Assembly: GCF_963675165.1 (NCBI RefSeq) | Contig: NC_087393.1 | Span: forward strand, 1,327,002 to 1,391,001 | Direction of reading: 5' to 3' | DNA from: Halichondria panicea | Taxonomy: Eukaryota; Porifera; Demospongiae; Suberitida; Halichondriidae | DNA: 64,000 nucleotides | Shown: positions 25,701 to 62,797 of the stretch, piece after piece | Position numbering within the stretch: the stretch's first letter is position 1 | Layout: each line of letters opens with the position of its first letter | Program-made: the position numbers and the translations under genes | The notes under the pieces: model-generated | Told to the model about the DNA's origin: nothing | Seen by the model: the letters and a program-made list of their open reading frames with translations, nothing else | Database searches by the model: none

Positions 25701-28700
25701 GTAACAAACTGCATTAAAATCTAGGTTGGGGCAGCCAAAACTGACCATGCAGTATAGTATACAAAATAGCAAGTGGCCATATTTCAGGGCGAGTTCTGTG
25801 CAGTAATGATCAAGCTAGCAATTCGTGCCCAATAAGTATATCGAGGTGACCGTACTTGAAAGAGCTAATTAACCAGAATATTATACCAAAATTATATATA
25901 GCAGGGAATTTGTTGTTCAATTTTCGTAAACTATATCAGTTTAGGACAGTATTGTACAGTAGAATAATTTTATAGTTTTAATTCTCATGTGATGCTCGAA
26001 TGAGTGTCAAATCCCTTCTTTATAATAATTATACCGTATAGCGCAAAATTTCGTGGGTTAGTAATCCTACACAAAATTAAGTCCACGAAAATTGTTCTTT
26101 AATTAGAATTACCTGCAAAGATTTAAAGGCGTGGCTTCCGGTAAGCCGTCATTCCACGAACATTGTGCAACGAAATGCTTTTAGAGGCCAATCCACAAAA
26201 TATAAGTGCCTCGAAACTTTCGCGCTATACGGTAATATGCATTCTATAAAAAAAAGATACCCTTTGCATGTTGTTTCCTTCCATGCATGCATGTACAAAG
26301 TGGCCTATAATTATATTTATGTATAATAGCAATTGAGTAAATAATAATAATGAGCCGATTATTTTGTTATTGTATGCCATCTATAGATTCCAAGAGGATT
26401 TTTGACAATGCTATGGAAGCTGGAAAAGTGAAGGTTAGAAACACCAATGTACTCATTGTTGGAATGGCTGGAGCTGGAAAGACTGCTACAAAACACCTGA
26501 TCTTTGGTGTGCCCCCTCCTGATGTACGAAACAGCACTCCACTAGCAGAAGCTCCGATTCAAGCCCAAGTTCGTGATGTTTCAGGGATAAGAGCTCATCA
26601 AACAGGTAGTCAATGGACAACTATTGATGCCAACGATCTTGAGAAAGTTGTTGGCGATGCTGTTGCTGCAATTGGTCATCAATTGGTTGATACTTCTTCT
26701 GAAAGAATGTCACAATTGCGTCAATCAGTACAAGACATAATCCATAGGTGGAATGTATTTTCACGTACAAGGTCTGAACAGCCTCAAGCTACAGGCACCC
26801 CTGCAGGTAGTGATGTCGATGCTGTCCGTTCCGAGCTTATATGTAGCCATAGCGTTGAGCAAAGTGATATTTCTGAATACATTGTCAGTCTAGACAGTAA
26901 GTTGGTAGAAATGATCCGAAAGAGACCAGCATCTGTCAATCCCCCCTCAGTTGAGGCTTCGAAAGTACTAGGGAAAAACTGGATCTACTTTATAGACAGT
27001 GGGGGTCAGCCACACTTCCACAATATTCTTCCTCATTTTATCCAGGGTCTATCTATTGTTTTGTTTACTCATCGCCTTTGTGACAAACTTGACAATTATC
27101 CAGAAATTCACTACGTTGTGAATGATCAATCCATTGGTTCTTTTAGGTCAACCGTTAGTGTAAAAGATACACTTACGCACCTTATTCATTCCATCTGCTC
27201 TCATTCGAATGCTAGTACAGGAGCTCACAAACCGAATATGCTTTTCATTGGCACATTCCACGACAAGATTGAAGAAAGTAATGAAACTCTTGATGAAAAG
27301 AATGATCAGCTACTCCATCTTCTACCAGAAAATTATCGAGAAAAACTGATATTACATGGCAAGGAATTGGATCAGTTGATTTTTGCAATCAATGCTAAGA
27401 GTCCTAACGAAAACGATAAGGATAAAGTAAAATTTATAAGAGAAACAATAGAGTCATCTCCACCTTTTGAAGTTGATGTTCCAATTAAATGGTTTGTACT
27501 AGAAGTTTTTCTTAATAATTTTTCTAATCACTTTAATCGAAAAGTAATAAGAAAGTCGGAATGTTTAAACATAGCCAGCCAATTACTTAAGATGGAGGAG
27601 GCAGAGCTTAATGCATGTCTACAATTCTTCCATAGCAATCATCTCCTTCACTATTATCCTGTATTGCCAAATCTAGTTTTCACTAGCACTCAAGTTCTTT
27701 TGGATAAACTCACTGAACTTGTTCGAGAATCGTACCAATTAAAAGGATCCGAAAGCGTATCTTCAGCTCGACCAGGTGTTTGGCGTGACTTTCGAGACAA
27801 AGGAATTATTACACCCATAATTTTGAAGACATTTTCAAGTCACTACGTGGAGGACCTGTTTAATCCTTCAGATCTCTTTGTACTTTTTGAATATCTTCTT
27901 ATAATAACACCTTTGAGTTTCACAGAGCAAGACAAAATTGATTATTCTCAGCCTAATGCTAAGGCTTTCATGCCTTGTTTACTAGGTATACTTCCCGCAA
28001 ATGAGCTTGAAAAATATCGACTCTCAAGTGAAATAGAGCCGTTGGTGCTATCCTTCCCAAGTGGAATACTGCAATCTGGCATATTCTGTTGTCTCCAAGT
28101 TTACCTAATTCAAAACTTAAAGTGGAAACTTGTTTCTACTGACGGGAGGCCTAACATTATTGCACAGAATTGTGTAATGCTATCACATTCAAAGATGCCC
28201 TGCACAATTGTCTTGATTGACTCCTTTTCATATATCGAGGCGCATGTCCAATCTAAAATTTCAGATTATCGAATAGTTTGTCCACTGATCCGAGATGATA
28301 TTGTCAATGCACTACACGAAGCAAGTTTGGCTCTGAACTACACTGATACGGAGGAGCCAGTAGTGGCATTTTTCTGCCCTGATGACCATGCAGTGCAGGC
28401 TCCAGATCTAGAGTCCACTCCTCTTTCTCCGATTTCTTCTCCTACTACTAGATCTATCCCCAAAAGACATGTTGCTAATAGGCTGGAGTATGGTGATTAT
28501 CTCCGGTGCTCACTTCAAGATGATGTCTACCCAAAGCTAACAGAGAAGCATAATATGTGGATTGGTCCTGCTTCAAGTAGTAAGTTGTGTGCTGGTTGAA
28601 TCATGAATATTGTATACTCTAGTCTCGCGGTCATAGTTATATCTTAAAAATTGTATGGTGACTATATTGTATGATGACTATATAGCAAGTTTTTTGTGTC

Positions 28701-30012
28701 ACAGTGGAATTACTTTTGCGTGTTTTATTAACTACAACGTGCGTACCAAGACCTAGCACATAAAACCCATAGTCTTTTAGCTACCTGGTAACCGTATTTA
28801 TTCGATTTAAGGTGCATGAGTTGACACTTCTAAATGATTACAAAGCTAAAGGTCGCTATACTTTTGGAGGTTGACAGTTATTCCTTGTAGAAGTCCTTGT
28901 GTCACATATTTAAAGGATTTTAGATTTATTTTGTGTGGATGCTGTAAACACAGTGTTATATGGCATCCAGGTGAGTAGACATATGAAACAACGAATCGAA
29001 ATCTGTCACAATTATAAAACTAATAACTTGTTGTGTGTAGGCTATCCATGCTGTATACAGTGCTATAACTCACCTGTCACACACAAACAAACAAACCAAC
29101 GGACTACTATACCCGTGGCCGCCCACATACATCTCGGGTGATATAGTAGAGTTGTATTATAAGCTGTGGTATACAAATTGCTATATGAACGTAGCATAAT
29201 GCTGGTTCTAAAAGATTCCAGTGGATTCACGTTAGTCTCACATCACCACCAAATGTTCCAATATAGAACAACTTTGGGGTGTTACGAGATTAGATTTACG
29301 TGCATTTTATCATTACTCCACTTAAAACCATGTATATAGTAGGCATTCCTTCTAGCGTACGTCACAACCACATGCTGTACAAATTTGCAATAGTAATATA
29401 ATGTTTTCACTACAACTGCCAGTAGGAAAGGCAATGAATAACATCGTTACTCATTGCCTTTTCTACTAGTTTCAGTTTCAATAGTGAGTATCTGTGACGT
29501 AGGTCAGACAGAATGCCTTTTGTGTATGGAGTTGCCTAATGAACTCTTGATGACGCCTATCCAACATCTTTTGAGATTTGCAGTAATACCACAATGAGCA
29601 ATAATAGTACAGTCATGCATGTTGTATACAGACTGAGTCTTGGTGTCACACTGGCTCATTATTTACAGATTTATGGGTGATGGCTGGGAACAACCCTATT
29701 CTCAATGTTGGAATGCACTTGCAAAATGTGAGAACGACTGTGCATAGAGCCAGACTCCAATGGAAAAATATTGGTCGTGGTCTAAACGTACCCGATGATG
29801 ACCTCGAGAGCATTCATGAAGAACACTGCAAGGATCAAGACTTCCATGCTGAATGCTTGTACTATACGCTAAAGAAATGGATGCAATCAGGAATTGCTCG
29901 AATAGAAGACCTCTTGGATGTACTTGAGGGTGAAATAGTTGGGCACAAAGATCTTGTGCAGGAAATTCGTCAACAAAATGAGGAACAAAAACGTAAAATA
30001 GGACTCATTTGA
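13724..30012 (+). CDS. Roc-COR-like GTPase with C-terminal Death domain, probably N-myristoylated
   Basis: Spliced model, about 926 residues: exons 13724-13750, 16922-16954, 20930-20974, 22378-22431, 25340-25424, 26387-28579 and 29669-30012. Each junction has an AG acceptor and a GT donor, and all phases agree. Exon 1 encodes MGGGQSAEE, a good N-myristoylation signal, suggesting membrane attachment. Exons 2-5 (residues 10-81) are charged and Gln-rich, probably coiled coil. The big exon has a P-loop GMAGAGKT (about 107-114), a G3-like DSGGQ (about 285-289), a G4-like GTFHDK (about 370-375), then a COR-like stretch (WFVLEVFL ... YYPVLPNLVFT). The last exon encodes a Death domain (WKNIGRGLNVPDDDLESI). 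Roc-COR proteins are GTP-regulated signalling proteins, and the Death domain implies recruitment of death-fold partners. The first exon and tiny exons are inferred. The two large exons are certain; a shorter gene starting near 25.3 kb is possible. Confidence 0.78.
13751..16921 (+). other. Intron 1 of the Roc-COR-Death gene, repeat-filled
   Basis: It holds a palindromic MITE (14087-14204), a block at about 15000-15170 that is found inverted at 22740-22910, a segment at 15300-15350 (ACGAGTAATGCAAGCTGCGC) that recurs at 37140-37190, and a copy of the CGAGGCATAATTA repeat near 15940-16090. I see no further exon I would defend. The donor, GTTAGC, is non-consensus at +3. Confidence 0.5.
14087..14204. 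mobile_element. Short palindromic MITE (GCATATATACGGCACCGG type), copy 1
   Basis: The arms GCATATATACGGCACCGGAT and ATCCGGTGCCGCCGTATATG pair as inverted repeats around a middle containing GCTAACCCGAACCCCTCCCT. The same element occurs at 40131-40243 inside an intron of another gene. Confidence 0.7.
17454..18313. mobile_element. Decayed DNA transposon interrupted by a second MITE
   Basis: The left end (TATACTTATTCGATTTAAGG) and right end (TTTAAATCGAATAAGTGCGG) are inverted repeats. Inside it, 17597-18141 is a separate pogo-like insertion, so the outer element is older. A left half of the same outer family stands alone at about 28790-28926. Confidence 0.6.
17597..18141. mobile_element. pogo-like MITE (CCGTAGAAACTTG ends), 545 bp
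   Basis: Ends are CCGTAGAAACTTGATTATTA and TAATCCAGTTTCTACGG, flanked by TA on both sides. It lies inside an older element (17454-18313). There is no complete open frame. Confidence 0.75.
18444..18690. mobile_element. hAT-like MITE, 247 bp
   Basis: Terminal inverted repeats are CAGAGGCGTAGGAAG and CTTCCTACGCCACTG, a pattern common in hAT elements. I cannot see a clean 8-bp target duplication, so the superfamily call rests on the ends only. Confidence 0.55.
19178..19381. mobile_element. Mariner-type MITE (CCGTATAGCGGG ends)
   Basis: Ends are CCGTATAGCGGGTAAG and CCCGCTATACGG, with flanking TA. It is one of a family also seen at 26034-26232, 45539-45773, about 55700-55853 and about 61468-61637, with degraded members near 20505-20745, 32281-32448 and 49090-49137. 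Confidence 0.75.
19777..20177. mobile_element. Tigger-like element with a transposase N-terminus remnant
   Basis: Ends are CAGTAGAACCTCGCTAATC and TTAGCGAGGTTCTACTG with TA on each side. Inside, from about 19951, a short frame reads MATAKKTKRELTRL then TVLERKLR before a stop. This resembles the basic start of Tigger/pogo transposases just before the CENP-B-type DNA-binding domain. The element is therefore a deletion derivative of an autonomous Tigger. Confidence 0.7.
20185..20515. mobile_element. Second, inverted and more diverged copy of the Tigger-like element
   Basis: It is the reverse complement of most of 19793-20100: it runs from ATCATTAACGAAGACACTTG, through the transposase-start region, to GGTCCAGATTAGCGAAG. 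Together with 19777-20177 it forms a large head-to-head inverted pair. Confidence 0.7.
21030..22131. mobile_element. MULE-like element, 1102 bp, 9-bp target duplication
   Basis: Terminal inverted repeats of nearly 100 bp begin TAGCCTCGATCCCAGGCCGA and end with its complement. The element is flanked by GGGCTATAG on both sides (21021-21029 and 22132-22140), an exact 9-bp duplication. No transposase frame is seen, so it is non-autonomous. It lies in an intron of the Roc-COR-Death gene. End fragments of this family appear at 30500-30534 and probably at about 53015-53092. Confidence 0.85.
22741..22920 (-). repeat. Inverted copy of a repeat from intron 1
   Basis: The region from TAGAATAGCAACCTTCTACG to GCAATGCTAGAAGCTTATAG is the reverse complement of about 15000-15170. 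Neither copy has coding features. Confidence 0.6.
23024..23480. mobile_element. MITE-family copy 3, joined directly to a DUF3504 gene remnant
   Basis: The left part matches the five-copy family (GAATTGGCAATGG end, CGAGGCTTACTT, CAGTTCTACTGCTAAACAT, the TTTCCCGGGTTTTCGCGGGA block and GGATGGT). Instead of the family's right end, the sequence runs straight into the remnant at 23488-24130. Confidence 0.65.
23488..24130 (-). pseudogene. Crypton-type DUF3504 (KIAA1958/ZMYM-like) gene remnant
   Basis: Read on the minus strand in three frames, the order of family landmarks is kept: VTDQELQHLSKPFVPKKTS, then QTKWALQNF, RNSRPEAEKCPDDLLLQIEA, LLNKWLSVFVAETRI, LQSILSGLLRYMRGVDA, FETLHNTMDTIYRGLR, AQGVGAETHSAEPFSNEEE, then FYYNGKVFCLRGGHEHRSL. 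This is the domain order of DUF3504 proteins, which derive from Crypton tyrosine-recombinase transposons. At least three frameshifts and two stops show it is dead. A possible N-terminus (starting MQIAKKNKTMPDFTAVKELV near 24918) lies further upstream on the same strand but is broken too. Confidence 0.75.
24984..25042. repeat. Near-perfect hairpin
   Basis: ATGCCACACCTAAGAGGAGG and CCTCCTCTTAGGTGTGGTAT pair around a loop of about 10 bases (ATGGGTGC). The repeat is short and has no clear family. Confidence 0.7.
26034..26232. mobile_element. Mariner-type MITE (CCGTATAGCGC ends)
   Basis: Ends are CCGTATAGCGCAAAATTTCG and TTTCGCGCTATACGG, flanked by TA. It is closely similar to 45539-45773, sharing TTAAAGGCGTGGCTTCCGGT. 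It sits 155 bp before the main GTPase exon. Confidence 0.8.
28580..29668 (+). other. Last intron of the Roc-COR-Death gene
   Basis: Donor GTAAGT at 28580, acceptor TTTACAG ending at 29668. It contains a left half of a TTATTCGATTTAAGG element (about 28790-28926) and a hairpin at about 29424-29475 (GTAGGAAAGGCAATGA / TCATTGCCTTTTCTAC). Without splicing, the main exon would end six codons later at 28599 and lose the Death domain, so intron retention would give a shorter isoform. Confidence 0.65.
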
Positions 30013-52552: not shown

Positions 52553-53898
52553 TTACAAGATCTTCATGGGTACCATCTCACTTTCTCCTTCGCTTGGCCG
52601 TCGCTCTTCTTCTGCCAAAACAAGGAGAATAAAATGTGACCTGTCGCACATCCTTATACACATCATTGCTACTATTGATGTACTTATCCTCACCTATACT
52701 ATGTTCCTTTTCCTGCGGTGGGCGCCATGCACCTGAGGAAAAAGAGTTTTTAGCTGTAATCATCAGTCTGAGAATAGGGCTTGGCAAATTATGCTAACAT
52801 AATTTTTGGAATAATAGGGAGACTTCTAGCAACAAGCATAATTGAGAATAGTAGAGCACTTAATTAGCATAATTTGACCCTTAGGTGGACGTAGCTATAG
52901 ATAGACATCTATATTACTGTACTGTAAGCACTCTAGGCAGGCAGGGAGAAGAATATTTTTTTCGGCACAGAGGATTATATTTCACTTTCTGTAATGCTAC
53001 CTCAGGTATATAGCCCGTTTGGTCCTGGGCCGATTTTTTTTTATAGAACAAAGTTGAAAAATACTAGCTAGAGACAACGAGGCTGGGAACGAGGCTACCT
53101 CAGGTATAGAATAAATTGTTGTCTTTAAACTGGAATAATAGGCTGACTTTTTGACAAAAAGAATAATAGAAAGCATAATTTGCCAAGGTCTATCTGAGAG
53201 TATAAACACTTGAAGGATGCATGGCAATGAATTGTTCTTTTCATGTGAAACATATTGTACTCACCCTGGATCTTGATTTCCCTTGTAGGGTCAAAGCTAT
53301 CCAGACAGTATTTTATGACCCTCTTGCATCCAGCATCGCTTAACCATTCACGAAGATTGTCAAGATTGTCAGGTTCAACTTCCAATTGCTTCTCTGCCAC
53401 TTCAAAGAACTCAAGCAAACGTAGAGTGTAGTCCTTGTTGTGTAATGGCTTTGATAGAGTGTTGAGAGTTGTGCGAGGCTTAAAAGTATCTCCTGCTGTA
53501 TTGATAATCCTGGTTGCTGCACCTTCATCGTTTGCAATACTAGCCACAATTTTCAGAAGCATTGCACGAAGGTGAACCATTGGTGTAAGTGATTCGGGCA
53601 CGAAGTACGCTTCAGTAACATATTCTTGCAGGTTTGCAAGCCAATCAGTAGGGCACACTTGGGTCTCATTTAAAACATACCAAAACCTTGCAAGACCTCC
53701 TTCTTTATCTTTGAGAGTTTCAAAGTAGATTCGACTGATGAGATTCTCACCGTTCAGTACTTGTTTAGGTGCATTTGGTGGTAGAATAGGAGCCAGCAAA
53801 AAGCACACTCGATCATAGTTTAGAGACTTAGGTGGAATTTCTTGACTGATATCTTCGATAAGTTGTAACAATTTTTTGCTTTTTATAGATGACGCCAT
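52553..53898 (-). CDS. Small protein consisting of the NLR-type N-terminal death-fold module
   Basis: Exons 53898-53265, 52732-52694 and 52611-52553 give 243 residues. No signal peptide or membrane segment is seen. Residues 1-211 align along their length with residues 1-205 of the NLR at 55547-59859: LQEYV, then LR-x-x-LL-x-IA/V, then a C-terminal half (LLEFFEVAEKQLEVEPDNLD, then NLREWLSDAGCKRVIKYCLD) that looks like a death-effector-type helical bundle. The first exon ends in the same phase and at the same point (after SFDP/SFCP) as in the NLR, and a short exon follows in both (39 and 42 nt). The last part is acidic and low complexity (EEERRPSEGESEMVPMKIL). By analogy with stand-alone death-fold proteins it could bridge the receptor to an effector or compete with it; this role is inference. 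It lies 1.6 kb downstream of the NLR on the same strand. Confidence 0.85.
53016..53092. repeat. Probable MULE-family remnant flanked by CTACCTCAGGTATA
   Basis: CTACCTCAGGTATA occurs on both sides (near 53000-53013 and 53096-53109). Between them are GGTCCTGGGCCGA and GAGGCTGGGAACGAGGCT, resembling the ends of the 21-kb MULE family. It lies in intron 1 of the small death-fold gene. Confidence 0.45.
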
Positions 53899-54003
53899 TT
53901 GATTTGGACTTAGCTGTAAGTACAAATACATTCATGATTATTAACGACTGCATAGGCATAGAATTTTATGGTGCCATGCCCATAATTATTCAACATCTAG
54001 ACT

Positions 54004-54627
54004 ATGGGGTGCCGTTTGTGTCAAAATCCAAAAAGAGTCGATGTTATGAAATAGAGTTGACGTTATAAAAAAATCTATGTTTTAATTAGGAGTCGATGTT
54101 ATAAATAAGTCGATGTGTTTACCATAACATTAGAGTAGGCCTATTCTGTGTTTTGTAGTAAGTCGACCTTTACTAATACGATTTAATAACAGTAAAACTG
54201 GAGAGTGTAGGAAGCTGGAGCCGAGGTGTGCTGCACAGAACAGACTGGAGAAACCCAATGAGTGACCTTAATGAACTAAGGTCAGCCTGCCCTGTGCAGC
54301 ACCACTCTCCAGTTTACCGTTAAATTGAACTTAAATCGTATTAGTAAAGGTGGACTTACTAACAAAACACAGAATACCAGATAAATTGTTATGGTAAACA
54401 TTTGACTCCCTTGTAACGTCGACTCCATTTCATAACATCGACTATTTTTATAACATTGACTCCGACTGGACTGTGTAAACATTGACTGATTTTAGAATTG
54501 CATGAACTAGTAATTTTGACACAAACAGCACCCCTTTTTAAAACATCAACCTTTATAACATCGACTCTTTTTATAATGTCGACTCCATTTCATAAGATCG
54601 ACTCTTATTGGATTTTGACACACCCAT
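54004..54627. mobile_element. Palindromic element made of GTCGATGTTATA-type repeats
   Basis: The left arm (GGGGTGCCGTTTGTGTCAAA, then repeated GTCGATGTTAT) and right arm (repeated ATAACATCGACT, then TTTTGACACAAACAGCACCC at about 54514) are inverted repeats. The centre pairs AAACTGGAGAGTG with CACTCTCCAGTTT. A further ACATCGACT-rich stretch ending GATTTTGACACACCC extends to about 54627. Confidence 0.7.
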
Positions 54628-55097
54628 ATCGATTTATATCAGATAGATCTACAGATACTGAGATAATTATATAACTATAGCTTTCAACTGATGCTTCATT
54701 TCAATAGCTTATAATACATAGACTGTACTATTATTTAAGACTCACATCACAGCAGACTCACCGTCCAGTTATTAAAAAAACTTGTTGGCTGTTGGCGCTT
54801 GGCCGAGCTGTGGTTTTCACTACCCCAAATGAATGTGGTCTAATCTCTAGATCTATGTTAATTTCCCAGCACTGCACTAAGTGCAGCATGGGGAAAGATC
54901 TATGTCATGAATAATGATGTATAGTTCTCATCACCTATGTACACGCATGAGCTGTTCATGTTGTTGTCTCTATATGATATACTAAAAGTGTCGAGCTTCT
55001 GCCATTCCTTGAGAGTCAGACTTGAGAGAGCAATTGGAAGCTATATATATACATGTATAGTATAGGTGAGAACAACCACACAGCATAACAAGATAGT

Positions 55098-55337
55098 ATG
55101 ATCACCAAATCAAATGCACTGAACAAGTCTGGCAAATGGGTGACTGTTGGTTGGATCAGTTTTAGCCAGCTGAGCCAGCTCGATTGGGTGGGACTGTCAA
55201 CTCATAGACTGCATGTGCTGCCTCAGTACCTGCTATACGATGTGTTCTTTTCTCCCTGTAGCACTGGTCATGGTGCTATATACTCCGTGACTAATTCTGG
55301 TGTTCGAGTATACCACAATGACGGTCATGCACGTTAA
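55098..55337 (+). pseudogene. Orphan N-terminal domain of a purple acid phosphatase
   Basis: The 79-residue frame has NALNKSGKWVTVGW, then LSQLDWVGL, then SPCSTGHGAIYSVTNSGVRV. The same layout (NRSGDWLTVYWSGV, SSLDWVGLWVLP) opens the acid phosphatase at 60118-62797, and the SxxSxxxGxGxIS-like block is typical of plant and animal purple acid phosphatase N-terminal fibronectin-like domains. No metal-binding motif follows before the NLR gene on the other strand. It may be a dead duplicate, or one exon of a small secreted protein; no signal peptide is visible. Confidence 0.55.
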
Positions 55338-55546
55338 ACAACTTTTGTGTACACGCATGTCCATACATGCTCTTTTGTTATAAAAATTATTAAAATTGTG
55401 TTTGTACAAAAACTAGTGTGGGATGGGGATGTAATGTAAAATTAGTGTGTGTAGTGTAGTGTAAAATAGAGCAGTGTGAATGAGTTATCTTAACAGCTAG
55501 TAATTCGGATACGCTACAGTTAGAGTATGCAATACGTTATTAAGAG

Positions 55547-58500
55547 CTAAACAGCAACCCTTAGGTCACATCTTTCAGTAAGTTGAGGTGTGCGGTTGAC
55601 GACAGCAGATCGTATTGCAATCTTGCCCACATCCGTCATGTCATGGTTGTAGTAGATTCTGCAAGGAATATATCAAGTCAATAATTTTTCATACTACCGT
55701 AAAGCACCTTAATTTTCAAGGCGCTTAATTTTTGCTGTTTTTGTGTTTTGAGGGTTAGCAATATCCTTCACAAACCAAAATAGCACGAAATTCATTCAAT
55801 GGAATGTTTTTAGAGGCACTTAAAAAGTGCCTAGAAAATTTCGTGCTATATAGTATTATAATCCTGGAACTTATAATTATAGCGATAATATTAATTCAAA
55901 CTGACCTCATTTGCACAAGAGTGTCTGTAAACTCCAGGTAGCTAGCCAAGGCAAGAGCACCACTATCCCCTATCACATTCTCCACAAGACTGTGCATGAG
56001 GTATCCTTTAAAAGTTAAATCTTCATAAATCTTAATATCATGCACCTCACGGTCTTGAGAGATGTGGCTTTCCTAAGGCCTGGAAGCATGTCAATGACCC
56101 CCTTATCTCCAAGTTTGTTTTGATAAAGCCTGCATAATTATGAAAGGATGAAATCATAATAGGGCACGTAAAATCTATAGTTATTGTGGTAGAATATAAA
56201 GCATTGCACACACTCACTCAACAGTCTCCAACTTTTGTAGAGTTGCAAAAATCTCATTTAAATGAGCACCAGACTTTCCCGTCAAACTTGTCCCACGTAG
56301 ACTGGAGAAATGAGGTAGTAATTAGGTGCACACACAAGAACAATACAACAAACCCATACCCTAAAATTTTCAGCTCTGTGCACTTGAGCAAGCCCTGCTT
56401 CATTTCTCCTAGTCCTTTGTCGCTAATAGGATTGTAGCTGATACTGTGAAATAAGAGATTATTGGTAGGCAACAACATAGCCTTGTGGGACTACTTACTA
56501 GAATGTGTGAAGCTGAGGCAAGTTTTCCAAAATACTTGAAACGTGGCTTCCGGAGTCCATATCAAGATCATTCCGAGACACTCTGCACAAAAATCAACCA
56601 CACATGTTAACAAGCACGTACATGTACATACATTACATGACTGTACGTTACATCCATGTCAGTCGCCCACATAAAATTACTGTGATGTTACAAGTGATAC
56701 GTCACATAATTATATACACATACATGAATGTCTGCAGCTTGGTCATGTCCCTGATAACTGGAGCAAGGTACTGAAAACGTGCAGTCTCGAGCTTGTTCCC
56801 ATACAGCCTATAAAACAAATCATAAATATAGGTAATGACAAGTCTCCATACAAATCAAAGAATCAAGGAATAAAATGTTTAGGTGTATATACATTGTAGC
56901 ATGTGCATGCATAAAACACATCTGTGCCAATTATACCACTAGCTGGTCCCATTATTAATCAGTGCATGATCAGTCACCACACCACCACACGGTCACATAC
57001 ATAGTGCAAGTACAATACAGACACACGTAAACATGAGATACCATAATTATGGGCTACTATTTTCTTAGCTAAACAATGGTATTTACGAACAGAAAATAAC
57101 TATAAATGGGTGGAAAATAGCATTAACATAATTACGTATCTGTCCCTTAATTACTAACCTCAGCTCTTTGAGGTTTGGCAGCCTCTGGAGTAGCTTGGTA
57201 AGTGCTGGTGCTCCTTCAGTTCCCACTGCTCGGTCAATCCTCGCTCTGAGTCTGTGGGACAAACATGATTGTCGCACAGTTAAGTTGCGGAGTTACATAA
57301 GCAGCCATGCAATCAATCACAAAGCAAACGTACAAAGAATCTAAGCAAAGGTATATAGCCTTAGCTACATAAGTAATGTACAGTGTTTTAATTACCTGAG
57401 TAGGTGTACTGCCTCCAGAGTATTTTCCAGCTGGTCCACGAGAGCTCCGATGCCCTCAGGCCCGATGTGACAATAGCTGAGATCAATCTCATTAACTTCA
57501 CTGTGGGCACTAGAGGTAACATTTCCCACGGCAGCACAATCAGATGGGGTGAGCGAAATGTCGTTGACATCCATTCGTCCGTGCAGCTGAGTGACAAGAT
57601 CGACACAGGCGGCAACATTTTTCGACTCGAAGGCACAGTGAACCATGTTGAGGGACGCAATCCGACGCTCGGAAGATACATTGCGATTGGAGATTTCATG
57701 GAAGGCTTTCGTAAAGAAGCTGGGTGAGGTCTTGACTCCAGGCTTTTGTGAAAGACCACAATAAAACTTCCAGACAACCCACATGTGATCCATGCCGCCC
57801 ATAGGTGATCTAATGACGTTTAATTGCTCAGACTGTTCACAAAAATAGAGCAAATGGCAAGCGGACAAAAACTCCTGCAGGGTGAGATGAAGGAAGCTAA
57901 ACGATTTTGTCGGGAGTGAACTGTCAGCGATGATACGATCAACGGTCAGTAATCCAAGGGAGTCAAATGCTTTTTTCCTGTAGTTGACTGGTAGCTTCAT
58001 ACTACCCATTTCGAGGATATCTTTGCCCGTGAAAATTTGCTTCTGATCTGCTGTGGCTTTGAATGCTAGCAAGCAGATGCTTTGAAAGATTGGTTTCTTC
58101 TCGTCTGGAATTTGAGAGAGTGCGTGAAGCTCTTCTTCATCATCCTCATCATCAGAATTACTTTTCCCACGGAGGAAAGAGCGGTAGAGGGTGTGCAGAG
58201 TGAACTTGTAGTAAAGATCGGTTTCTGCATCAGGAAGCTTTTGACCTACACTGAACAAGTAAACTACCATAGCAAGATGGAGAGGGAGATAGCACATTCG
58301 AGCGATGTTGGGATGCTTGTCCAAGTAATTCAGAAGGATTTTGGCTTTGTGTCGATTTTCTTTGAATGCATGCTCCACATATGCTGTGATTTCTTTCTGC
58401 AAAAAGCCAATGATCTCCACATGCTTGCTGAATCGCAAATCATTCCTAAGAGGAGCAGAGCCGGCAGGACGAGAAGCCATAACAATGCTGGCCTTTGGTA

Positions 58501-59859
58501 GCAATTGTCCAACAAGAAGCTTCTTAATCAAATTGGTGTTATCTTTCAAGTGGCCATACTCATCCAAACCATCTAAAAGCAGACAGACACCTTTCCCACC
58601 GGTTTTCGTCACTTCGTCAATCACAGAATACACAACACGGCTATTGGCACTATACTGTCCAAAAATATCTTCAAGGCTAACATCTTTCTTGCCAAGAAAT
58701 TGACGCAATCGAACCAGAACCAGAATTTGCATATCTTGCAAAATGTCACCATTTGCCCAATCTTTGCTGACTTTGGTGAGAAGAGTGGATTTACCACATG
58801 CAGGGCGACCTTCGATCAAAACTAGTGTTCTCCCTCGAGGTTTTGTTGAGGGCAGCTTTGGGAACACGTTTTCGTAGCAGGTGGGCATTTTTCTCGACAT
58901 GACATCGTCGACAGAGCCTCGGACGGTAGCTCGACTGAAATGGTCATTGCGTGGCATCGGATCAGACGTGATGAGTGCAAGGTTGATGTAATGAACCTTG
59001 GTAACGGGTGGCCACTGATCAATGGGAAATTCGGGCATAACCTGGTACGTTTCAATCAAGTTATCTCGATAGTGAACTGAAACAAAAAAGAAACATCATA
59101 AAAGCAAATAATTACATGTACTCACTGTCAATCAACGTACCACTTCCTGAATGCGTTAGAGGCTCAATGGCGACTTTCAACTCTGAAATAAAAATATATA
59201 CACAGTTGATTACAAGCACATTGCACGAGAAATTGTTACCTACCAACATCCATGACTGCTAGTGTGTACGGACGGCTTGGGCAGAAACTCCCCAGCTGAT
59301 TCTGAATAAGATCTTTTCTCCCCCTTTCTAGAAGTAGTTCCCGAAGCTCCTCCAGATCACTCCCATCTTGCTTAATTTTTCCATCTATTAGCAGTTTTTC
59401 GAACAGCTTCAACAATCTGCAATAGTTTGAACTGGCTTTGAAACGATCAGGGTTTGCCTTCAAGGTAGAAATAGCAAAGTGGTGGATAAACGGTTCTATC
59501 TCATCTTTTGATTTCATTGATACGGCAATTGTCGAAAGGAGCTCTCGCAGTTGTAGGCTTGGAAGGAGCTTGTTTGTTTCGTAAATCTTTCGACTATTGA
59601 CGTATTCTTGCAGTGCTTTGCATTGCTCATCCTTGCATATATCTTGCACAATGAATCGGATTAGAGAGACAGCAATCTGGTAGTACTCTGGGGAATGTAT
59701 TAGGAGGGATGAGAGTTCCACTAAGCTTTCAGAGCCAGTGCATTTTGGTAGCAATGCCCGAAATTGAAAACATACTCCAGCCAGAGAGTCATCAGAAGCA
59801 GCATCCTGGATCTCTTTCAGGAGGCCCAGCACGTCGTCTTGAGACCCAAGTGATCCCAT
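55547..59859 (-). CDS. NLR receptor: death-fold N-terminal module, NACHT, leucine-rich repeats
   Basis: Eleven exons in phase: 59859-59244, 59182-59141, 59076-57396, 57251-57159, 56807-56724, 56582-56499, 56443-56360, 56301-56218, 56129-56046, 55989-55906 and 55658-55547, giving about 1015 residues. Residues 1-205 form an N-terminal module whose second half (YCRLLKLFEKLLIDGKIKQD, LRELLLERGRKDLIQNQL) resembles a death effector domain. NACHT: Walker A GRPACGKST (309-317), Walker B LLLDGLDEY (385-393), SRPAGSA and a winged-helix region ending FLHLTLQEFLSA. The C-terminus carries leucine-rich repeats of the ribonuclease-inhibitor type (YNPISDKGLGEMKQGLLKC), six of them one per 84-nt exon. NLRs sense microbial or danger signals in the cytosol and oligomerise through NACHT. 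No stop or frameshift was found; ATG is the first in frame. Neighbours: a stand-alone copy of the N-terminal module downstream, an acid phosphatase upstream. Confidence 0.93.
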
Positions 59860-60117: not shown

Positions 60118-62797
60118 TTAATTCATTTTGTTAAGAATAATATGGTCAAATAGTGTTCCGTCATTGTGGATGTACTCGAACACCAGTGTTGTTGCATTGG
60201 CTTCAAACCGAGTGTAGCCCCAGTGCTAGAAGAAAAAAAATATTATAAGTATGTATATAATCTAAATGTAAAACTTACCAACTCATCTAGTACTTCAACA
60301 AAACTTGGAGGGGTTGGTCTAAAATGGAGAAAAATATCAATAATTCATGAAAACGGTTTAATGCGAGTCTCCAACCTGAGATCATGAAGAAGAGCTCTGC
60401 CTGCCATTCCCATGACAACGTGCACTGGAGCTCCTCCTCCTTCCTGACAGACGCCATTCACCACTGAACACATACGCTGGTAGGTGTGGTGATGACCCCA
60501 GAACGCAATGTCCACCTTGTAAGTCTACAGGGTGTGTACCAAGCACTTTCAATATGAATAATGTTTACTCCTACACATGCACTTGAATAGCTCGTTATGA
60601 ATAAGTCTTACCACCAGCAATGGTTCAATATGTTGTATCAGTAGCTTTGATACTGGTATCTGCCCTGAAGGCTCAGTCTCATTGGAACTATCTATATACA
60701 TGGGCCTAAAAGGAAACAAAGTCATACTTCCATAATATGCAATTACGTCACGCCTACCTGTGTCCTGCAAATATCAGCCAGGGAGTTTTTGTTCTGTCAA
60801 CACGCTTGAGATGATCTAAAAGATAGGTGTGTTGGGGTGAGGTGCTGGTGAAGTTGTGCTCAGTACTCATCATCACAACGTGGATGCAGCCAAAATCAAA
60901 CCCATACCTAAAGGTAGAGCCTTAGAATTAAACAATGCATGTTATACAGAAGTGTACACATCTTACCATGGCTGCTGGGGACCAGGAGTTGGCATGGCAA
61001 ATCTGTTGACATAAGGGACATTGCACTCTCCTCCAGAATCATTCTCCTGCCAGTAAGCACTGCACATTCAAATGTGAAATAATATGCACAATTAATTACT
61101 ATAGCGTCTACATGCCATGCCACTTACTCCGAGTTGGGAGAGTCGCTCTCATGGTTTCCAGGGTTGACCATACAAGGCAGCCCAGCCAGCAGTGTCTTGA
61201 CTTGGTCAAAGTACTCATCCCACTGATAATAAAGGGATGTTTTTAGTGGTTTCAATATCAAAACACTACTCACAATGGGTTCGTAACCATCAGCATAGCT
61301 TATGTCTCCAACATCAATGATGAGGTCGTGGGCTCCCATCTCACTGATCAGGTTCCTTGTAGTGTCCAGGGAGGGCTGCTCTAGTTTACGCACTTGTCGA
61401 GTGTCGTCTTTCTCACCATGACCCATGTCTACAAATAGAAAAATGATAATACTAGGACATAACATTATAGCGGGTGATTTTTGTTGGTGCAAGTTTCACT
61501 ACAAACTATATACCCATTTAAATATGTACAGCTCAGGATAGTGACGTTGAACTCTCGCAGTTTTAATCGTAGGTGCTCTACTGATATGAAAAATATGAAA
61601 TTTCCATCATACGAAAATAACCCGCTATATATACGGCAATAAAATTTAACCTCCAAATGCTAATACTCTTGTTATAACGTTTGGTCCAGTTTCAGGAGCT
61701 GACGTAAAACTGTACTCTTCACTCCAACCATAAGCAGCATCACCAAAGATGTAAAAATATTTGGTTTGTGGCTCAAGTCTATACAAAAGGGATTAAATGA
61801 ACAGCAACATTTTCAGGTCTACTTACTTTTCCAGTGTAACCTTATGGATCATTCCAGGATCTAGCCATCCATAGTCCCTTGCAGGAGAAGCACACATGTC
61901 AGTGGCTTTGTAAGTGGAGCTCACCGCCTATATAATCACAATTTAATATCTTGCTTTACATGTAAGAATACAGGTTTCATACATTCTTCATGACTGTGTA
62001 CTGCTTGCTTGTAGTGCCCCACTTCACTTGAGGAGCAGTTGCATCCCTAGTCACCCACATTAAGCTAGAGAAATAAACCAATTGAACAGCGCTACAAAGT
62101 TGCAGTGTCGATGGCTTACACCATCTCAGTAATGTCGTTGGTGAGAGCAAGATGACCGTGTAGTGGTTCATTGGGATTTTTGAAGCTGATCGGTTTAGAG
62201 ACAGCAGCCATAGTGGGTTTATCAAAACCTAAGTTATAGTGGTCGTAGTATAATGCTGAATCACTTATATTATACCTCCTCTAAAAAATCCAAAGCGATT
62301 CACTCCACGCATGTTTACAAGGTAAAATTTGAACTTTCCAAAGCCCCAATCCATGTGAGTGTTTGAGACATTGCAATACTGCAGAAAAAGACGGGATTTA
62401 AGTAATCACATGTAATAATAGAAACCATTGTTGTTTTAATACCTGATATTTGACAGGTGCTTGTGTCTTTGAGTTGATGTCAGTAGCATTGTCTGGCAGT
62501 ACCCACAGGCCAACCCAATCGAGGCTGCTCGGCTTGTCAACACCACTCCAATACACAGTAAGCCAATCTCCACTTCTGTTTAGTGCGTGATGGGACAAAG
62601 TAAGCCCAATGGATGGTTCTGCATGGAATCAAAGTAGCGGTTTTACAGGATTGCGATGCAATTACTTTTATGGTTGATATACCTAGATTCACAGTTGCTC
62701 TTTCGTGTTTGAAGGATCTCAGTGGGTTGACTTCATAATGGCAGCATACAGAAGTTAGAGTTATCAAGAACACAACAAGCTGTATCAGAGACAACAT
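60118..62797 (-). CDS. ACP7: Purple acid phosphatase (metallophosphoesterase), secreted or lysosomal
   Basis: About fifteen exons join in phase to roughly 565 residues. The first exon (62797-62683) encodes a signal peptide (MLSLIQLVVFLITLTSVCC). A fibronectin-like N-terminal domain follows (SGDWLTVYWSGVDKPSSLDW). The five metal-binding blocks are all present: GDMGHGEKDD, VGDISYADGYEP, NPGNHESD, an H in the GCIHVVMMSTEHNF/AGHR region and FWGHHHTYQRMC. The C-terminus HWGYTRFEANATTLVFEYIH is typical. Exon ends checked include 62618-62443 and the last exon stopping at 60118-60120. Such enzymes hydrolyse phosphate monoesters at acid pH with an Fe-metal centre. Start is the ATG at the head of the signal peptide. 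The final His of some blocks was matched by eye only. A mariner-type MITE (61468-61637) lies in one intron. Confidence 0.92.
61468..61637. mobile_element. Mariner-type MITE in a phosphatase intron
   Basis: TATAGCGGGTGATTTTTGTT at the left and AAAATAACCCGCTATA at the right are the family ends; the interior is short and diverged. Confidence 0.65.

Follow-up and report, generated by a model that had tools for sequence, protein, structure and literature searches.

Does a sponge receptor of the NLR type (NACHT domain followed by leucine-rich repeats, LRRs) work together with the small protein encoded next to it, and what kind of module do the two proteins share? The question is raised by a gene pair at positions 52,553 to 59,859 of a 64,000-nucleotide stretch of the Halichondria panicea genome (contig NC_087393.1, positions 1,327,002 to 1,391,001; hereafter the window), in which a first-pass annotation had recognised an NLR beside a stand-alone protein made of the N-terminal module of the receptor, and had suggested an inflammasome-like unit of receptor plus dedicated adaptor or decoy. 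We found that the two modules are homologous. Profile comparisons point to a tandem death effector domain (DED), though a highly diverged one, as the most likely identity of the module, rather than to a new fold. By analogy with known DED systems, we tentatively propose, with slightly less than even confidence, that the NLR docks onto caspase-8-like proteins via its own DEDs and has beside it a FLIP-like regulator akin to its N-terminal part.

Both genes are located on the minus strand of the window, receptor first, and 1.65 kb separates the end of the NLR gene from the start of the stand-alone gene at 53898. With the splice sites of both genes set by eye from the genomic sequence alone, the NLR gene comprises 11 exons with GT-AG borders at all ten introns and encodes 1,015 aa without an internal stop, in the order module, NACHT, LRRs. 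Its NACHT domain scored 77.6 bits in Pfam (cut-off 26.7), the top-scoring solved relatives of the NACHT exon were NLRP3 chains (E 4e-13), and in the last 375 residues LRR_6 reached 56.2 bits (cut-off 23.4) in four stretches, with LRR_4 and LRR_1 over their cut-offs as well; both the NACHT NTPase domain and the C-terminal LRRs that define the class are present. The stand-alone gene has three exons with GT-AG introns and encodes 243 aa, of which only 32 residues, from exons 2 and 3, lie beyond the module. The first exons of both genes end in phase 1, and the outer coordinates, phases and exon sizes originally assigned to the two genes were correct (Table 1).

The two modules share 26% identity, and their global alignment score was 99, compared with a mean of 13.4 (sd 5.2) for shuffled sequences (z 16.6), with none of 500 shuffles scoring as high. 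When each protein was searched against the window by tblastn, the other module was recovered over about 200 residues (E 1.4e-5 and 1.5e-6, values that refer to the 64-kb subject with composition correction off). With both frames open and this score, the annotated arrangement of an intact NLR adjoining an intact protein made of a homologous module was confirmed. The finer resemblances on which the annotation had relied fared unevenly. Its landmark motifs were approximately right, but the LR..LL spacing differs slightly between the genes, and LQEYV holds for the window pair but not for two paralogues on another chromosome (C2), which have LRKSV and LKKYV. The 39- and 42-nt sizes of the second exons were given correctly but are not a conserved feature, and we rejected this match as evidence because exon 2 is longer in the paralogues (60 and 57 nt).

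A genome search with the stand-alone module returned four places, namely itself, the two copies on C2 (75 and 78% identity; S2a and S2b below) and the NLR module (E 0.0017). With one C2 copy as query, all three stand-alone copies were recovered along with a chance-like match on C6 (E 1.16), but not the NLR, and the NLR module recovered itself, its neighbour (E 0.0018) and one C2 copy (E 0.69). For the stand-alone protein, no relatives closer than the C2 paralogues and the NLR beside it were detected; no family member beyond these was found in the three single-protein genome searches, which detect only fairly close relatives, and viral contigs yielded no relative. S2a and S2b lie 9.4 kb apart and follow the same three-exon plan. 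All three copies of the stand-alone gene are open with canonical splice sites, and they share a tail of the form EE(E/D)xRPxxGESE(M/L)VP. The ratio of non-synonymous to synonymous substitution rates (dN/dS; NG86, 300 bootstraps, about 95% intervals) was 0.56 (0.38-0.86) and 0.52 (0.34-0.80) for the pairs with the window copy, both intervals excluding 1, and 0.72 (0.43-1.15) for the C2 pair, whose interval includes 1.

One C2 copy stands head-to-head with a stretch that matches, at 66-91% identity and in four pieces, window positions 60158-62744, which lie upstream of the NLR; this part of the window is metallophosphoesterase-like (Pfam 20.9 bits, just under the cut-off of 21.5). A longer copy of the metallophosphoesterase-like gene is located on C2 at the position equivalent to the window fragment 55111..55197. 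Since metallophosphoesterase-like pieces are head-to-head with stand-alone copies both on C2 and in the window, the two genes seem to have travelled together, in one direction or the other. In C2:7712000-7742000, where this gene copy also lies, both stand-alone copies are each followed by an exon that we take to resemble the ribosome-assembly factor LTV1.

For the profile comparisons, 15 distinct loci (16 regions, C4 twice) around DED matches were read, the genome having 29 such matches. The selection was made by eye: seven single DEDs from three loci (L053-L055) formed a DED set, and five divergent modules whose first half is long and whose second half is DED-like (one on C4, three on C12, one on C10) formed a tandem set; L056, L057, L061, L063, L064, L066, L067 and the first stretch of L055 were omitted from both. 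The limits of the NLR module were also set by eye, at about residues 1-93 for the first half and 98-192 for the second. Pfam DED gave a weak match in three of the four family members (best E 0.022) and was the only Pfam family matched by more than one of them. The second-half profile matched the seven same-genome DEDs with a score of 27.9 over 40 columns (probability 52%), which none of 60 column shuffles reached (maximum 19.2). The whole module aligned co-linearly with the five divergent modules over 172 columns (score 34.6, probability 53%), and the shuffle maxima were 18.2 for the full module, 28.4 for the first half only and 23.8 for the second half only (0/60 each). Adding two Pfam-grade tandem DEDs gave 34.2 over 169 columns (maxima 17.6, 25.8 and 26.7; again 0/60 each), and the reversed module scored 20.0. 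In the five divergent modules, the first halves themselves match DEDs (E 1.3e-6, 0/60 shuffles).

Similarity to DED profiles therefore exceeds chance for the second half alone, and for the first half only within the whole module. When the NLR module was used alone, the part that aligned was its first half (residues 12-93), which covered 82 columns of a whole DED with a score of 23.4, higher than 137 of 139 natural decoy windows of 205 residues; together with the Pfam match in its second half, this hints at one DED per half, each weak. We infer the DED identity of the first half from these alignments. The first-pass annotation had compared the pair with death-fold systems, and there are signs that the module belongs among the death folds: profile comparison favours DED, but no curated cut-off was reached. 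A death-fold signalling domain at the N-terminus is usual in NLRs, though not universal. The annotation had also considered the N-terminal half a possible new fold, which we rejected as the best reading: this half adds to the in-register tandem-DED alignment, and that of the NLR aligns with a DED, both effects being modest.

A number of results weigh against a tandem DED. The Pfam DED (PF01335) scores of the stand-alone protein, S2a and the NLR were 13.4, 13.7 and 15.4 bits, respectively, against a cut-off of 35.9; S2a was matched better by CbiX, an unrelated family (15.2 bits, cut-off 22), than by DED, and in S2b Pfam contained no DED match, the sole match being Sld5 (E 0.22). The first-half profile was not significant on its own, either against DEDs (15.3, reached by 4/60 shuffles) or against the corresponding halves of the five divergent modules (3/60), and no internal repeat was detectable between the two halves (15/60). 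The three stand-alone copies alone aligned over 41 columns, and each copy alone aligned by its second half. A profile search of the PDB with the module gave no match at E up to 10. Single-sequence scores were 27.6 for the stand-alone protein, 27.4 for S2a, 23.4 for the NLR and 20.5 for S2b, and the decoys had a mean of 13.1 (sd 2.9), with the third at 20.4; two overlapping decoys (25.2 and 24.9) outscored the NLR module and S2b. The decoy match is the P-loop stretch of a NACHT, which shows that false positives can reach such scores. The five divergent modules were picked for their similar layout, which favours co-linearity, and the shuffles address chance, not that choice. The AlphaFold2 models, built from two-row alignments, were too poor to superpose, with a mean pLDDT (predicted local distance difference test score) of 47 for the NLR and 37 for the stand-alone module. 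In NCBIfam, six families were matched, each in one member and none of death-fold type.

The helices of the NLR model fall, at low confidence, into two groups, 7-89 and 100-189. A Foldseek search with this model gave no match at E 0.001; the top row was a tandem-DED structure of FLIP (E 0.91), and 13 of the 50 best of 123 rows were death folds by title. The Foldseek result and the helix grouping are weakly supportive of a tandem DED.

An RxDL motif in the last helix serves as one mark of a DED. The second DED of the NLR keeps it as RKDL, and all three stand-alone copies lack it, having CKRV or CKKV instead; the pattern R.[DE][LV] was present in 7 of the 13 stretches compared. Loss of the motif in the stand-alone copies would fit an impaired contact. 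It is no proof of a decoy, because three of the five divergent modules (C12a, C12b and C10) and the second DED of caspase-8 are without it as well.

Candidate partners are encoded in the same genome. Counted by exon, domain matches numbered at least 102 for NACHT at E 0.001 (102 of 265 candidates scored), at least 150 for Death at E 0.01 (150 of 503), 44 for CARD at E 0.01 (57/57), 29 for DED at E 0.1 (31/31) and 33 for the caspase domain at E 0.001 (36/36). On C10, a tandem-DED stretch on the plus strand (859830-860339) is followed 1.9 kb downstream by a caspase domain (862229-862894), and another on the minus strand (2922809-2923384) is followed 0.8 kb downstream by a second caspase domain (2921362-2921988); each combination is probably one caspase-8-like gene, the joining of the exons being our own. 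Among the matches listed, the NACHT nearest to a DED lay about 73 kb away, on C14 (coordinates compared by eye). In the best 77 of 259 candidates scored as NACHT relatives of the NLR, itself included, the 76 others were at most 32% identical, which makes the NLR an isolated lineage among those compared. No tandem DED was found upstream of the 29 next-best relatives: the 41 pieces (open frames of at least 90 aa within about 1.5 kb) scored at most 14.2 against tandem DEDs and at most 17.7 against the module itself, both within the decoy range.

In the model that we favour, the NACHT ring of the activated NLR would gather several tandem DEDs, and these clustered DEDs would act directly as nuclei for the tandem-DED prodomains of caspase-8-like proteins, with no separate adaptor. 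The stand-alone gene would stem from an old tandem duplication at the locus, the simplest origin of its kinship to the NLR front end, and, together with its metallophosphoesterase-like neighbour, would later have been copied onto another chromosome, unless the copying went the other way. DEDs join homotypically, and the stand-alone protein may enter DED assemblies by such contacts, bringing neither a catalytic nor a receptor part; most likely it would limit or tune caspase recruitment as do c-FLIP short forms, variants of a cell-death regulator that consist of just a DED pair. FADD and CASP8 of the sponge Amphimedon have been assayed by distributed amphifluoric FRET (DAmFRET) as parts of a basal death-inducing signalling complex (PMC13012725). 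Like c-FLIP short forms and other tandem-DED-only regulators, the stand-alone protein would have two DED-like units and little else, and tandem-DED stretches lie beside caspase domains in the same genome. Unlike c-FLIP, which is a paralogue of caspase-8/10 (PMC7586951), the stand-alone gene is related to and next to an NLR N-terminus, and its sequence is far below DED cut-offs.

ASC and the CARD-only and PYD-only proteins are small death-fold proteins that share their fold with an NLR front end. The stand-alone protein is likewise small and shares its module type with an NLR front end, but it has a DED-like module instead of a PYD or CARD and is without the second, bridging domain of ASC; where an ASC-type adaptor has two different docking domains, it has the module and 32 residues. 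We preferred the caspase-8/FLIP analogy because the module resembles a tandem DED and the stand-alone protein is without a second type of docking domain, and the inflammasome-like unit with an ASC-type adaptor suggested earlier is the weaker comparison. DED-NACHT receptors have been described in amphioxus, sea urchin and Nematostella, and those of amphioxus were proposed to trigger apoptosis directly, with no ASC-like hub (PMC2575513). The sponge NLR would resemble them in joining a DED-type front end to NACHT, and appears to differ in its tandem, very divergent DED, its lone lineage and the stand-alone relative beside it. Sponge NLRs have been classed as NLRX, NLRD and NLRC in a study of Dysidea avara (PMC12909245), and our NACHT-LRR protein, in which neither CARD nor Death is recognised, would be placed in NLRX; unlike NLRX as defined there, its N-terminus is not blank but would hold a hidden DED-type module. 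This suggests that some sponge NLRs filed without an N-terminal domain may carry hidden modules of this type, and that NLR sensing may be linked to a caspase-8 route, not to the ASC/caspase-1 route. What is new is the linked pair, as DED-NACHT receptors and DED-only regulators are each already known; a partial literature search, mostly by titles and abstract starts, found no published report of a tandem-DED NLR. Should the neighbour prove to be a brake, a FLIP would have arisen convergently from a receptor. The full scenario, in which sponges evolved a FLIP-like brake from a receptor and not from a caspase, so that a tandem-DED NLR fires caspase-8-like proteins and an adjoining DED-only relative limits the signal, we regard as rather unlikely.

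The competing explanation that we take most seriously, unlikely as it is, holds that the modules are old relatives with unrelated jobs, that their neighbourhood is the remnant of a tandem duplication and that the stand-alone proteins serve other DED pathways. The 26% identity agrees with it, as does a divergent tandem-DED module upstream of a GTPase-like gene on C4. The C2 copies bear on it too, and count against a functional pairing: tblastn with the NLR at E up to 0.01 detected no NACHT or LRR part in the 30 kb of C2 that hold the two copies. The same search misses the C2 modules, and therefore speaks against NACHT and LRR parts only, not against a distant module. With two of its three copies on another chromosome and so placed, the stand-alone gene is not a strictly dedicated partner, and the idea of a self-contained unit is weakened. 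The pair in the window is nevertheless still adjacent, 1.65 kb apart on the same strand, with a crude chance probability of 2.7e-4 for any of the three loci; duplication, however, accounts for adjacency without function.

The stand-alone protein might instead be a positive adaptor, whose filament, seeded by the activated NLR, would draw in tandem-DED caspases in the way that ASC serves PYD receptors. Its module is homologous to that of the receptor, DED-like, and open and conserved in three copies, and death-fold adaptors of fish and sponges are reported as supersaturable (PMC13012725). We nevertheless consider an adaptor unlikely, as the protein has a short charged tail and no second interaction domain, RxDL is missing in all three copies, and the two modules share less sequence (26% identity) than partners that co-assemble would be expected to, without this excluding such an assembly. 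Somewhat less probable again is a new helical domain with superficial DED likeness. The sub-threshold Pfam scores with none in S2b, the missing PDB match by sequence, the poor models and the first-half profile that is not significant alone would all suit it, but the in-register tandem-DED alignment beats shuffles of either half, and DED is the sole Pfam family found in more than one member. It is highly improbable that the stand-alone gene is the decaying 5' remnant of an NLR gene: its evolution is fast (dN/dS 0.5-0.7, with 1 inside the interval of the C2 pair), but three copies are open with canonical splice sites, all keep their own third exon, and both intervals that involve the window copy exclude 1. 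A proposed FLIP-like regulator beside an NLR that would dock onto caspase-8-like proteins remains our best reading, and the features of the locus are compiled in Table 1.

Table 1. Features of the NLR gene, the stand-alone gene and the fragment between them (window coordinates).
Feature	Position	Strand	Size and content	Basis
NLR exon 1	59244..59859	-	616 nt, phase 1; 205-codon module at the N-terminus, interpreted as a divergent tandem DED	Pfam DED E 0.023 in second half
NLR exon 2	59141..59182	-	42-nt linker exon, phase 1-1	splice sites and frame
NLR exon 3	57396..59076	-	NACHT with P-loop, then helical region and LRR start	Pfam NACHT E 1.3e-21; frame
NLR LRR exon	57159..57251	-	93 nt	frame; LRRs of spliced C-terminus
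NLR LRR exon	56724..56807	-	84 nt	frame; LRRs of spliced C-terminus
NLR LRR exon	56499..56582	-	84 nt	frame; LRRs of spliced C-terminus
NLR LRR exon	56360..56443	-	84 nt	frame; LRRs of spliced C-terminus
NLR LRR exon	56218..56301	-	84 nt	frame; LRRs of spliced C-terminus
NLR LRR exon	56046..56129	-	84 nt	frame; LRRs of spliced C-terminus
NLR LRR exon	55906..55989	-	84 nt	frame; LRRs of spliced C-terminus
NLR last exon	55547..55658	-	contains stop	frame
Metallophosphoesterase-like gene, 5'-part fragment	55111..55197	+	head-to-head with stand-alone gene	86% over 87 nt to C2 copy
Stand-alone exon 1	53265..53898	-	634 nt, phase 1; 211-codon tandem-DED-like module, second DED without RxDL	
Stand-alone exon 2	52694..52732	-	39 nt (60 and 57 nt in paralogues)	
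Stand-alone exon 3	52553..52611	-	59 nt with stop; charged tail EEERRPSEGESEMVP..., kept in both C2 paralogues	

Elsewhere in the window, a large P-loop GTPase-like open reading frame (26341-28599, plus strand, 748 aa) matched no Pfam family at E up to 1, and the exon after it (29608-30012, plus strand) contains a Death domain (26.1 bits, cut-off 22.6). The divergent tandem-DED module on C4 (6967500-6975000, minus strand) is a 213-aa open reading frame upstream of a P-loop GTPase-like one, which has a Roc match below cut-off (E 0.006) and by eye encodes the same kind of protein as window 26341-28599. The source of the top decoys, C1:9546019-9549495 (L001), has a sub-threshold Death match upstream of its NACHT (residues 138-212 of the tested stretch, 14.2 bits against a cut-off of 22.6). 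A large array of NACHT genes lies at 1.85-4.22 Mb on C7, several of them with a short upstream exon that is Death-like by eye.

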